Shown: piece after piece, positions 10,101 through 24,600 of the stretch
How the letters are laid out: each line of letters starts with the position of its first letter
Numbering within the stretch: the stretch's first letter is position 1
DNA from: Actinomycetospora straminea
GTDB taxonomy: Bacteria > Actinomycetota > Actinomycetes > Mycobacteriales > Pseudonocardiaceae
NCBI RefSeq assembly: GCF_028737255.1
Contig: NZ_JAQZAN010000009.1
Location: 62,001-126,000, forward strand
Length of the DNA: 64,000 nucleotides
Reading direction: 5' to 3'
Program-made: the position numbers and the translations under genes
Notes under the pieces: generated by a model
Databases searched by the model: none
The model's input: the letters and a program-made list of their open reading frames with translations, nothing else
Told to the model about the DNA's origin: nothing

Positions 10101-13100
10101 GCCCGACGTCGAGCAGCGCGGCCTGCTCGGCGCCGACCCGGACGAGCAGGTCGGCGAGGGTCTCGGCGGGGCGCTCGACGACGCGCACCGGGACGGTGTT
10201 GATGAACAGGCCGACGGCATCGTTCACCTCGCCGGAGCCGCGCCCGGACACCGTCTGCCCGAACACGGCGTCCGGCCCACCCGCGGCGCGCCCGACGAGC
10301 ACGCCCCACGCGGCCTGCAGGACCGTCGCGACGGTGACGCCGAGGCGCCGCGCGGTCGCCGCGACCCGGGCGGCGACGTCCGGGTCCAGCGGCACCGGGG
10401 TGCGGTGCGGCAGGACGGTGCGGTCGGCGTCGGGGGTCTCCACCGCGCGGGTCGGGGCGGTGACGCCGGCCAGGGCGTCGCGCCACACGGCGAGGTCGGC
10501 GTCGGCGTCGCGGACGGCGAGGGCGGCGAGGTGGTCGTGGTAGCGCGGGGCCTCCGGGAGCGCGCGGCCCTCCCAGGCGGTGAGGGTCTCGCGCAGCACG
10601 ATCGGCAGGGACCAGCCGTCGATCGCGACGTGGTGGAAGGTCAGCACGAGGCGGTGCCGCGTCGCGTCGCGGCGCACGAGCACTGCACGCAGCAGCGGGC
10701 CGTCGGCGACGTCGACGGTCCGGCCACGCTCGGCGTCGGCGACCTGCTGCGGGTCGTCGGTGGTGATCCACCAGGGCAGGTCGACGTGGCGCAGGACGAC
10801 GCCGACCGGGCGCCCGTCGGGGCCGTCGGGGTAGACGGTGCGCAGGGCGTCGTGGCGGTCGACGACGGTCTGCACGGCCGCGCGCAGGGCGTCGGGGTCG
10901 ACGGGTCCGTCGAGGTCGACGAGCAGCTGGATGGTGTAGACGTCGCCGCCGGCGTCCGCGCCGAGGCGCGCGAGGAACAGCAGCCCCTCGGCCAGCGGGC
11001 TCGGGCGCACGACGTCGACGACGTTGTCGGCGCCGCCGGGCACGCGGGCGGCGACGGCGGTGCGGTCGGCGTCGTCGAGCACGGCGACCGGGACCCGCCG
11101 GGGCGTGTCGGCCGTCGTGCCCGCGACCGCCGCCAGCCCGGCGACCGTGCGCTGCTCGAACACCTGCCGCGGGGTGACCGCGATGCCGGCCGCGCGCGCC
11201 TGCCCGACCACGGCGACCGCGAGGATGCTGTCGCCGCCGAGGGCGAAGAAGTCACTGTCGGCGCTGACCGCGCCGACCTCGAGCACGGCGCCGACCGCCG
11301 CGGCGAGCGCCTCCTCCACGGGCCCCGACGGCGCGCGGCCGGCGGGCGCCTCGACGTCGGGCGCGGGGAGCGCGCGGGTGTCGACCTTGCCGTTCGGCGT
11401 GGTCGGCATCGCGTCGAGCACCGTGACCACCGACGGCACCATGTAGTCGGGCAGGCGTGCGGCGACGGCGTCACGGACCGCGGCCGGGTCGAGCACCGCG
11501 CCGCCGGCGGGGACGACGTAGCCGAGCAGGCGCGCCGGGGCACCGTCCTCGCCGGGGCGGGCGACGGCGGCCGCGACGGACACGCCGTCGGCGGCCTGCA
11601 GGGCGGCGGTGACCTCGCCGAGCTCGATGCGGAAGCCGCGCACCTTGACCTGGTCGTCGACTCGGCCCAGCGGGTGCAGCGTGCCGTCGGCGTCGCGGCG
11701 CGCGAGGTCGCCGGTGCGGTACATCCGCTCGCCCGGCGCGCCGTACGAGTCGGCGACGAAGCGCTCGGCGGTCAGCGCGGGACGTGCGTGGTAGCCCCGC
11801 GCCACCCCGGCGCCGGCGATCCACAGCTCGCCGGCGACCCCCGCGGGCAGCAGGCGCAAGGCCGCGTCCAGCACGTACGCCCGCTCGCCGGCGAGCGGCC
11901 GCCCGACCCCACGTGAGTGATTTTCCCGGCCATAGCCGGGAAAATCGCTCACATAAGACGCCGCCGACCAGATCGTGGTCTCGGTGGGGCCGTAGACGTT
12001 GGTGACCTCGGCGGCGGAGGCGGCGAGCCGGGCGCCGAGCGCGGGCGGGAGGGCCTCGCCGCCGACGAGGACGCGCACGCCGTCGAGGGTCGCGGCCGGG
12101 TCGACGCGGTCGTCGCCGAGCAGCGCCTGCCACAGCGTCGGGGTCGACTGCACGACGGTGCGCCCGGGGCCCGCCGCGATCAGCGACGCCAGGCGCGGCG
12201 GGTCGAGCAGATCCTCGCGCTGGGCGAGCACCACCTCCGCGCCGCCGAGCAGCGGCAGCCAGATCTCGAGCGCGGCGATGTCGAACGACACCGTCGTCAC
12301 GGCCACCCAGCGGTCGTCGGGGCCGAGGTGCAGCCGCTCGTCCATCGCGCCGAGGAACGCGTCGAGGGCGCCGGCGGGGATCACGACGCCCTTGGGGCGC
12401 CCGGTGGAGCCCGAGGTGTGGATGACGTAGACGGTCTCGTCGCCGACCGGGCCCGCGAGCGGACCCTCGGCGCCGCGCGCCTGCGGGTCGACCGCCGTCG
12501 TGCCGGCCGGCAGCGCCGCCGCGTCCCCGACGACCGCGACCGGTGCCGCGTCGTCGAGCACCTGCGCGATCCGCGCCGCCGGGTAGCCGGGGTCGAGCGG
12601 GACGTACGCCGCGCCGGTGCGCAGCACGGCGAGCAGGGCGACGACGAGGTCGGGCGAGCGTTCGCACGCCACCCCGACCAGCGCGCCCGGGCCGGCGCCG
12701 GCCTCGCGCAGCGCGCCGGCCAGCGCCGCCGAGCGCTCCTGCAGCTCCCCGCGCGTCAGCACCGCGTCGCCGCAGCGCACCGCCACCGCGTCCGGCGCCT
12801 CGGCAGCCACCGCGGCGAGGCGCACGGGCAGCGAGCGCCCGTCGCCCCGCGCCGGCGGTCCCTGCGCGGCGGCCAGGGCGGCGTCGCGCTCGTCGTCGCC
12901 GAGCAGGTCGAGGCGCGCGAGCGGGGTGTCCGGGGCCTCGACCAGCACGGTCAGCACCCGCTCGACGCGGTCGAGGAGGGTCTCGGCGTCGGCGGCGGAC
13001 ACGACGCCGGTGCGGTGGTCGAGCTGGAGCACGAGCCCGTCCGGGCCGGGAGTCACGACGAGGCTCGCCAGGTAGTGCGGGGCGTCGTGGCTGCGCACCG

Positions 13101-21600: not shown

Positions 21601-24600
21601 TCGTCGGGACGCGCGATGCGCGTCCACGGCACCTCGGGGTCGGTGACCACGTGCTGGCGCGCGACGCCCTCGTCGTCCTCGACCGGCACGGTGCGCAGGG
21701 CCTCGTGGCGGGCGACGAGGTCGCCGACCGCGGCCCGCAGCGCGTCGGTGTCCAGCGCGCCGCGCAGGCGCAGCACGGCGGGGATGTTGTAGGTCGCCGA
21801 CGGCCCGTGCAGGCGGTGCAGGAACCACAGCCGCTGCTGGGCGGGCGAGAGCGGGGGCTCGGTGGTGCGGTCGGTGCGCGGGACGAGCGGGGCGACGGCG
21901 TCGGTGTGGTCGCCGGCCGGGTCGAGGCGCGCGGCGAGGCCGGCGGGCGTCGGGGCGTCGAAGACGTCGCGCACGGTCAGGGTGCCGCCCAGCCGGTCGC
22001 CGGCGCGGGCGACGACGCGGGTCGCGAGCAGCGAGTGGCCGCCGAGGGCGAAGAAGTCGTCGTCGGGGTCGACGGACGCGACCCCGAGCACCTCGGCGAC
22101 GACCGCGCACAGGGCCGCCTCGACCGGTCCCGCGGGCTCGCGGCGCGGGGCCGTCGCGTCGAGCGCCGGCGCGGGCAGGCGGGCCTTGTCGACCTTGCCG
22201 TTGGCGGTCAGCGGGAAGGCGTCGACCACCGCGACCGCCGCCGGCAGCATGTGCTCGGGCAGCGTCCCGGCGAGGCGCTCGCGCACCTCCGCGGTGCTCG
22301 GCTCCCGGCCGTCGTCGGCGATCACGTGCGCGACGAGGCGGTCCTCGCGCAGCGACACCACCGAGCGCGCGATGCCGTCGAGGGCGTCGAGCGCGGCCTC
22401 GATCTCGCCGGGCTCGACGCGGTGCCCGCGGACCTTGACCTGGTCGTCGGCGCGCCCCAGGTAGTGCAGGACGCCGGACGCGTCGCGGCGCACGAGGTCG
22501 CCGGTGCGGTACATGCGCGCGCCGGGCTCGCCGGTGGGGTCGGCGACGAAGCGGGAGGCGGTCAGCGATGGGCGCCCGAGGTAGCCGCGCGCCAAGCCGG
22601 CGCCCGCGATGTAGAGCTCGCCGACGACGTCGTCGGGCACGTCCTGCAGGGCGCGGTCGAGCACCCGCGTGCGCGTCCCGGTGATGGCGCGGCCGATGGG
22701 AGGCGCCCGATGTGAGCGCATTTCACGGTCCTGACCGTGATTTTCGCTCACGTGGGCGGCCGTCGACCACACCGTCGTCTCGGTCGGGCCGTAGAGGTTG
22801 GTGACGTCGGCGCCGGCGGTGTCGAGGTCGGCGGCCAGCGAGGCGGGCAGCGCCTCGCCGCCCACCAGCGCCGTACGCCCGGCGAGCACCTCGGGCGCGA
22901 CGTCGGCCAGCGCGCGCCACAGCGTCGGCGTGGCCTGGACGACGGCGTCGGGGTGCTCGCGCAGCAGGTCGGCGAGGGCCGCGGGGTCCTGCACGGTGCG
23001 CCGGGGCGCGACGACGACGCACGCGCCCGCGAGCACCGGCACGAGCAGCTCGAGCGCGGCGATGTCGAAGCCGATCGTCGTGACCGCGACCAGCTCCCCG
23101 CCCGGCCGCAGGCCGGTGCGCCCGTGCATGTCGAGCAGGAAGGTGCGCAGCGCGTCCCGCGGCACGACGACGCCCTTGGGGCGCCCGGTCGAGCCCGAGG
23201 TGTGGATGACGTGCGCGACGTGGGCGTCGTCGACCGGCGGGAGGTCACCGGGCCGCCCCGGCTGTGTCGGCGCGGCCGTCACGTCGAGCGTCGCCACGCC
23301 CGGCAGCGCGTCGGCGGTCTCGGGCGCCACCAGTGCGAGGGTCGGCATGGCGTCCTCGACGACGAGCGCCAGCCGGGCGGCGGGCGCGTCGGTGTCGAGC
23401 GGCATCCAGCCCGCCCCGGCGTGCACGCAGGCGAGCACGGCGACGACGAGCTCGGGCGTGCGCGGCAGGGCGATCGCGACGAGCCTGTCCGGTCCCGCGC
23501 CCGCGGCCCGCAGCCGGGCGGCGAGGCCCCGGGCGCGCCGGTCCAGCTCGGCGTGGGTCAGCGACGGGCCACCGGGGCCGGTCACCGCGACGCGGTCGGG
23601 GTGCGCGGCGGCGGCCGCGGCGAGCACGGCGGTCAGGTCCCCGCCGGGCAGCGACGAGAGCGGCGCGCCGGTTCCCGCGGCCAGCGCGGCGTCGCGCTCC
23701 GCGTCGTCGAGCAGCGGCACCGCGCCGATCGCCCGTTCGGGCGGGGTCGCGGCGAGCGTCGCCAGGAGCGCGGCGAGGCGCCGGTGGTGGCCCGCGAGCG
23801 CGTCGGCGTCGTAGGTCGCCGGGTTCGCGTCCAGGTCGAGGACGAGGCTGCCGTCGGGCTGGCGCTGCACGTTGACCGCGAGGTCGTGCACGGGCCCGCC
23901 CGACACCGGACGCGCGGTGCCCGTGGTCTCGGCGCCGAAGCGCAGCTTGTCGGCGAACGGCTTGACGTTGACCCACGGCCCGACCAGCGCCGCCTCGCCG
24001 CGAGCCCCGGCCGTGCCGGCGCCGGCGTCCAGGCGCAGGTCGCGGCGCAGGTCCTCGAAGCGGTAGTGCTGGTGGTCGCGCACCGCGGCGAGCTCCGCGG
24101 CGACGGCGCCGACCAGCTCGCCCACCGTCGTCGCCGGGGTCGGCGCGAGGCGCAGCGGCACGATGTTGACGAGCATCCCGGGTGTGCGGGCGGCGGTCGT
24201 CGAGGCGGCGCCTCCGAGCCGGCCCATCATCGGCACGCCGAGCACGACGTCGGGCGCGCCCGCGAGCCGGTGCAGGTAGAGCGCGACGGCGGCGAGGACC
24301 AGCTCGGGCCAGTGCCCGCCGCCGGCCCGGGCCGCGGCCTCCATCTCCTCGACCGCGGCGGCCGGCAGGGTGCTGCCGCGGCGCAGGAACGTCGACGACG
24401 ACCGCCGGCTCCCCCGCCCGAGGGTCGCGGGCTCGGGCGGACCGGGGAAGCGGTCGGCCCAGAACGCGCGGTCGTCCTCGCGACGGCGCTCGCGGGCGTC
24501 GGCGTCGGCCGCGACCAGCTCGGCGAGCGTCCCGGCCCGGCGTACCGGCGCCTCGTCGACGGCGAGCCGTGCGGCGTAGAGGGCGGCGACGCGGCGGGCG

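Follow-up and report, generated by a model that had tools for sequence, protein, structure and literature searches.

The window is the whole 64-kb stretch (64,000 nucleotides) of Actinomycetospora straminea contig NZ_JAQZAN010000009.1, with 76% GC in a host genome (G000) of 6.29 Mb. It carries two nonribosomal peptide synthetase (NRPS) genes and five copies of a 40-bp palindromic element, three of which are read in frame within NRPS adenylation (A) domains. Both NRPS genes lie on the minus strand. One occupies an open frame at 7135..18810, with 7139-18633 called coding by a codon model, and has Pfam matches to three AMP-binding domains, four Condensation stretches, three PP-binding domains and one Thioesterase. 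The other occupies an open frame at 18630..25571 (coding 18634-25077, the start lying inside the frame) with two AMP-binding, two Condensation and two PP-binding domains. The A domains of modules 1 to 5, all on the minus strand, are A1 (22173..23639), A2 (19008..20474), A3 (15730..17232), A4 (11365..12834) and A5 (8227..9702). A1, A2 and A4 contain an element and A3 and A5 do not, as a first-pass annotation of this DNA had reported. That annotation called the domains glycine-type, a label that would be compatible with their specificity residues.

The five dyads begin with GTGAG at positions 78, 11913, 19562, 22712 and 45912, end with CTCAC, and agree with their own reverse complements at 32-38 of 40 positions, in accord with the earlier description. 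When the window was scanned for dyads of 40 bp with at least 16/20 pairs, seven positions were returned, these five elements and two GC-rich hairpins. The minus-strand copies in A4 (11913..11952; 36/40 self-complementary), A2 (19562..19601; 38/40) and A1 (22712..22751; 32/40) belong to subfamily II and encode 13 residues each. As first described, they lie in frame in the interval that separates YGPTETT from the following conserved segment, and the GTG of the element is a coding-strand codon in each. Another subfamily II copy, assigned no strand (45912..45951; 34/40), lies between two convergent genes, one of which stops 8 nt before its left edge and the other inside its right edge. The fifth copy has a subfamily I core (78..117; 36/40; no strand) between two codirectional minus-strand genes, and inspection of its flanks extends the element to 62..133 (no strand) with two mini-hairpins, a TCC loop on the left and a GAA loop on the right. 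The A4 copy had been described as closer to the intergenic copy at 45912 than to its sister copies; this is the case, with an identity of 37/40 instead of the 36/40 first given (28 and 29 for the sisters). A further G000 copy outside the window, flanked by convergent genes (L033:7972), is 38/40 identical to the A4 copy.

The stretch encoded by the element looks tolerant of variation in the predicted structure, as had been proposed. An AlphaFold2 model of A2 has a mean predicted local distance difference test score (pLDDT) of 90.1, and the values fall below 50 at residues 296-302, which lie within the element-encoded stretch between two strands. Nearly all of 29 aligned A domains from a public genome collection are shorter in this loop, the longest being L091. 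The palindrome could have been ordinary protein sequence for such a loop, and 182 YGPTE sites in 80 A-domain loci of the public collection (the 80 top-ranking loci out of at least 590 candidates) were examined for this reason. The best dyad was 14/20, so that refutation as ordinary protein sequence, as framed in the first-pass annotation, fails there.

The pattern GTGAG-N30-CTCAC occurs 108 times in G000 compared to 3 matches for a reversed-pattern control. The search of relatives proposed in the first-pass annotation returned 65-218 matches in the 17 other genomes of the genus (0-4 for the control). Other genera of the family were sampled by one genome each (n = 19), and five are clearly rich in the element: G019 with 84 matches, G020 with 42, G021 with 147, G030 with 156 and G032 with 42. 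The remaining 14 have 2-18 matches (control, 0-7), and 24 genomes from other families have 0-13 (control, 0-5). The ends, the length and the dyad are common across genera and the stems are genus-specific; among the listed copies, G030 has GTGAGCCTTTTTGGTGGCTATAGCAACCAAAAAGGCTCAC and G032 has GTGAGTGGCGATTCGGGTTCTAACCCGAATCGCCACTCAC. One 72-bp element was searched in a plasmid collection without a match, and plasmid carriage was dropped as a candidate on this single query. We found no account of this repeat in the accessible parts of the open-licence literature on palindromic repeats in Pseudonocardiaceae and actinobacteria or on adenylation domains.

The element is 40 bp long and is defined by constant ends, with GTGAG or GTGCG at each side (GTGAG/CTCAC or GTGCG/CGCAC), that enclose a self-complementary stem of variable sequence. 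Two main kinds are present in G000. The core of kind I, of which GTGAGCAGAAAGAAGTGCTCCAGCACTTCTTTCTGCTCAC is an example, is extended to 72 bp by mini-hairpins at many loci (e.g., L062:10541-10612); read by eye, the mini-hairpins have mostly TNC triloops on the left and GNA on the right, with short stems that vary yet stay paired. Kind II includes the NRPS copies and the GTGCGTGATCTTCTGAGC subfamily, and a second pattern limited to such ends gave 76 matches versus 1 for the control. Hybrid elements also occur in G000 (e.g., L035:5001, L043:5001 and L056:5001), their halves resembling different subfamilies; an exchange of halves, or fresh copying of one arm, would be expected to give such elements. 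Palindromic repeats of another type, with CAGCGA/TCGCTG or GCAGCG-type stems, are found at L039:1798, L058:3350 and L061:2616. Single RNA strands of seven copies fold with predicted energies of -21.6 to -36.6 kcal/mol (z = -5.5 to -11.2). The window has no Rfam match at the gathering score, and a known RNA family was rejected on this basis. The GTG frame is free of stops on both strands in 52/55 distinct G000 copies, in 1/10 G032 copies and in 70% of random palindromes with the same ends. Given the G032 value and the random palindromes, we make no claim of a coding-compatible design.

Long, near-perfect dyads with fixed ends could be binding sites for a DNA-binding regulator or a chromosome-organizing protein. 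Subfamilies within one genome have unrelated stem interiors, however, and placement tracks stop codons and avoids the sites between divergent genes. The coexistence of several unrelated stems in one genome makes a single-specificity form of the regulator site proposed in the first-pass annotation unlikely, and we regard binding sites in general as highly improbable.

Placement was analyzed for 61 copies that have 300 bp or more of sequence to either side, using genes called by a codon-usage Viterbi model trained on the window. The copies are a sample drawn from 50 listed places of the GTGAG pattern, the first 15 of the second pattern, the window and the C11 blocks. Three matches were excluded because they lack a dyad (C6:91162, C10:68779 and C3:137119), as were C11:174349 (<28/40), C3:197211 (contig end) and the window copy at 78 (near the edge). 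The usual site of the family is the gene end. Extragenic copies account for 57 of the 61, with 27 between convergent, 26 between codirectional and 4 between divergent genes, and gene ends thus take the place of the NRPS genes first suggested as the main landing site. Four copies were flagged as internal, those in the NRPS genes and L049; at L049 a convergent gene continues across the element and ends 37 nt past it. Among the 80 facing gene ends of the extragenic copies, 79 have a stop codon from 28 nt before to 23 nt inside the element and the remaining one stops 115 nt before it. The stop codon lies inside the element at 36/80 facing ends and is most often the TGA of the element's own GTGAG. 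Random 40-mers placed in 424 kb of intergenic gaps were close to a facing end in 17% of cases, contained the stop in 8%, and were 21% convergent and 31% divergent. Binomial tests gave 4e-60 for 79/80 close ends, 5e-6 for 28/58 convergent and 9e-6 for 4/58 divergent copies, values to be read with the copies not being independent draws; the orientation tests used 58 extragenic copies, one more than the final 57.

Intergenic sites were compared with the sister species G008 in a syntenic block with a mean identity of 90.6% over the aligned parts. Ten G000 elements were compared, two of which (C11:133584 and C11:189027) lack a matching G008 flank. Two sites with matching flanks are empty in G008 (C11:97182 and C11:454908), one has only 14 nt there (C11:251891) and one holds a degraded remnant (C11:278036). 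At C11:269421 the G008 genome has a different full palindrome (C27:221546) with 20/40 positions changed; in 9 of 11 changed pairs both arms are altered and pairing is kept in the two species. At C11:259023 the G008 sequence is different and only imperfectly dyad-like, C11:434421 has a diverged copy, and about 1 kb of other DNA (C27:134725-135740) replaces the subfamily I element at C11:356248 between matching flanks. Six G008 elements were compared in the opposite direction, and C27:53576 and C27:15945 lack a G000 flank in the block. The C27:234557 element is absent from G000 with matching flanks, 3.8 kb of other DNA lies at the G000 site of C27:348225, and an unrelated palindrome lies at that of C27:408148. 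The last site is occupied by subfamily I in G008 and by one of the palindromes with CAGCGA/TCGCTG or GCAGCG-type stems in G000. A seventh match, C27:221889, is ordinary sequence in both genomes.

The elements could be functional 3'-end hairpins, either bidirectional terminators or mRNA-protecting stem-loops, that are kept by selection and moved as useful parts, with the NRPS copies as accidental captures. The position of 79/80 facing ends within 28 nt or inside, the preference for convergent and avoidance of divergent genes, and the very stable folds of the seven copies are consistent with such a role. TTTT was found within 14 nt outward in 0/122 flanks of the 61 copies, however, and matching gene ends in sister genomes do without copies. 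At C11:97182 an ordinary GC-rich hairpin adjoins the element and is kept in G008 where the element is absent, and copies within genes would interrupt their own gene. Position alone is no proof of function because repetitive extragenic palindromes (REPs) share the 3'-end bias (PMC3733652). We consider selection for 3'-end function possible, if on balance doubtful.

The A-domain slots were compared across sister species by reading 48 YGPTE-type sites in 20 A-domain stretches from 15 genomes including G000, plus the window. Dyads of 15-20/20 were found at nine of the 48 sites, three in G000, three in G008, two in G005 and one in G004. The A1 loop palindrome is GTGAGCGAAAATCACGGTCAGGACCGTGAAATGCGCTCAC in G000, GTGAGCGCACTTCCCAGCCATAGCTCGAAAGATCGCTCAC in G008, GTGCGTGATCTTCTGAGCTATAGCTCAGAAGATCACGCAC in G005 and GTGAGCGATCTTCGGGCCTATAGCCCCGAAGATCGCTCAC in G004. 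The corresponding A1 domains of G006 and G009 have no insert, so that the alignment of orthologous NRPSs proposed at the outset separates four filled from two empty A1 slots; correspondence across species was judged by order and neighboring residues. A2 in three species and A4 in two likewise hold different palindromes at the same place, and A1, A2 and A4 are all filled in both G000 and G008. The slot boundaries match to the base in all three domains, with conserved codons flanking both sides. Across ten species pairs, 9-21 of the 40 palindrome positions are changed compared to 10-18/132 in the upstream and 5-14/90 in the downstream flanks. Of the 95 changed base pairs (summed), 50 are altered on both arms and pair in both species. 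All eight A-slots for which an own-genome pool was available find their best match in their own genome at 34-40/40, with one tie, and orthologous slots agree at 19-31; the pools are partial lists of 79, 25 and 27 sequences. The G005 A1 palindrome matches other copies of that genome, C1:428837 and C1:742887 among them, at 40/40 positions.

These comparisons bear on two other explanations. A recombination point at which modules exchange A domains, as first proposed, would fit the shared position of the palindrome in A1, A2 and A4. Identity between sister species continues through both flanks and the palindrome alone stands out, and the domain at the expected A4 position in G005 is of another type and has no palindrome. 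No chimeric A domain with a breakpoint at the palindrome was seen in the aligned loops, to which the chimera search was confined. A swapping point is unsupported and scarcely credible. The G005 domain at the expected A4 place (L185:8022; YGPTEAAVDVTA) is an observation in its own right, indicating that the modules of the cluster differ between sister species. Alternatively, mutation alone could account for the differences, with template switching within the element's hairpin altering both arms and giving fast evolution with no copying between loci. The 50/95 pairs changed on both arms and still paired fit this explanation, and stems are known to arise and to be mended by template switching (PMC8794818). 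Mutation cannot readily produce the genome's common sequence, however, and the 40/40 identity in G005 and the own-pool matches at 8/8 slots make a mutation-only origin very unlikely.

Elements are also read in frame at other sites. The common palindrome of G005 is in frame in an NRPS Condensation domain, where G000 and G008 have none. Two different palindromes occupy the same NRPS stretch between methyltransferase and carrier domains in G010 and G012, and the stretch has no palindrome in G001, G003 and G016. NuoG is a subunit of respiratory complex I. In G020, which belongs to another genus, a palindrome (L297:1501-1540) is in frame in the NuoG linker between the molybdopterin oxidoreductase and the dinucleotide-binding domain. 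The linker has no dyad above 14/20 in the 23 other orthologs that cover the stretch, as read by a tblastn-based scan of 25 loci fetched after a search that matched 39/41 genomes; L318 does not cover it. A further palindrome in G021 (L292:1501-1540) lies in an open frame before the N-terminal domain of an acyl-CoA dehydrogenase; its translation is uncertain and hinges on the true start codon.

The A5-A6 loop could be a permissive hot spot that is hit separately in each species and module. The sequences do differ between species, and the flanks of the G010 and G012 elements differ by 9 and 6 nt. Independent insertion does not account well for boundaries that are base-exact with conserved flanking codons in A1 (4 species), A2 (3) and A4 (2), or for the occupation of all three slots in both G000 and G008. 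We judge it unlikely.

The family is abundant, sits at stop codons, is present or absent between related genomes, can be read in frame in flexible protein regions, and holds pool-like, species-specific palindromes at fixed sites. The palindromes are probably copies of a high-copy, non-autonomous repeat of the type represented by REPs and Rickettsia palindromic elements (RPEs), and we infer that occupied sites are overwritten by other copies. The earlier suggestion of a small palindrome family that is copied between sites, and not only inherited with the duplicated domain, agrees with this reading. Elements would spread as folded single strands or by template switching during replication. Insertions would survive where they are harmless, just past gene ends and, in rare cases, within protein loops like that following motif A5 of the A domain; a hairpin behind genes may also help to end or protect transcripts. 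Because any two copies share their ends and the ability to fold, one hairpin could be copied into another, either by template switching or by gene conversion across the shared ends. A replication fork that stalls at an element could use another as template and rejoin at the end the two have in common; 40 bp would then be traded for 40 bp with the reading frame preserved, and imperfect hybrids might afterwards be mended arm to arm. Template switching is described as a source of new and mended stems (PMC8794818); switching between dispersed palindromes would be our extension of that published mechanism.

Several observations weigh against this explanation. No mobilizing enzyme was found in a transposase search aimed at PF01797 only, and no target-site duplication is evident at the aligned presence/absence sites, where the flanks differ by ~10%. 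Since 40 is not a multiple of 3, the first insertion in each gene was not a plain 40-bp insertion. The intergenic orthologous pair at C11:434421 looks like ordinary divergence, with 13/40 positions changed, 1 pair kept by changes on both arms and 7 unpaired. In the A-domain slots, 45 of the 95 changed pairs no longer pair in one or both species, and the margins of the partial own-genome pools over the pools of other genomes are sometimes one position (36 vs 35). The 9 and 6 nt differences beside the G010/G012 element, and a few bases of differing length beside C11:269421, fit separate insertions as well as exchange. The comparison uses one assembly per species, and no exchange was observed between near-identical strains.

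A dedicated exchange process independent of REP-associated tyrosine transposases (RAYTs) would use GTGAG/CTCAC as cassette boundaries and repeatedly overwrite resident copies, including those in the three NRPS slots. We view such a process as somewhat unlikely. If it exists, it would give each species its own loop of 13-14 residues close behind YGPTETT. The family bears on the way in which REP-like repeats keep their dyads and remain similar to one another in a genome. The coding flanks fix the site, so that replacement of one palindrome by another becomes recognizable, countable and testable in frame. The repeats bring protein-coding palindromes to a high-GC bacterium with a large genome and are a natural source of NRPS loop variation.

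Among known systems, the perfect inverted repeats within coding sequence of Nematomorpha mitochondria resemble the elements in being palindromic and coding (PMC6649704). They differ in lying in conserved protein regions of mitochondria, and the abstract mentions no dispersed repeat family. An intrinsic U-tract terminator would have a T-run, in contrast to the 0/122 flanks here. Miniature inverted-repeat transposable elements are likewise small and repeated, have no gene of their own, and are present or absent between related genomes. In this family, however, the whole element is the palindrome, no obvious target-site duplication was seen at aligned sites whose flanks differ by ~10%, and the search for a parent transposon was confined to PF01797.

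REPs are high-copy palindromes of 20-40 bp that are mostly intergenic at gene 3' ends, and the element shares these properties. For REPs, PMC3733652 describes 3'-end placement, location between convergent genes, ends that supply stop codons and some intragenic copies, and reports different REPs at about the same recB site in two Xanthomonas species; the words Actinobacteria and Streptomyces are absent from its main text. Unlike REPs, which have GTAG/CGTC tags, the element has the same tag on both ends (GTGAG/CTCAC or GTGCG/CGCAC). GTAG directly outside the 40 bp was found on one side of 4/61 copies and on both sides of 0, and CGTC directly outside in 0/122 flanks of these copies. The REP GTAG superfamily is also associated with the RAYT transposase (Y1_Tnp, PF01797), which was found in 0/18 genomes of the genus and in none of the element-rich G019, G020, G021, G030 and G032. 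The genomes of the order that do carry Y1_Tnp (G022, G024, G029, G042, G047 and G056) are poor in the element, with 0-15 pattern matches, and RAYT/IS200 mobilization was rejected.

RPEs are palindromes read in frame in unrelated genes (PMC10969869), and the in-frame contexts found here are the NRPS A loop, an NRPS Condensation domain, a methyltransferase-carrier region and the NuoG linker. RPEs are about 150 bp according to that review, compared to 40 bp for the element or 72 bp with mini-hairpins. Compared by description only, the element also differs in residing mainly at gene ends and in that the palindrome of a given slot varies from one sister species to another. The REP superfamily tags and the Y1 transposase were tested for and not found, and the element is therefore filed neither as a REP nor as an RPE. 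The likeness to RPEs raised in the first-pass annotation is borne out for the mode of working, and on our best reading the element would work like both, resembling REPs in its placement at gene ends and RPEs in its in-frame copies.

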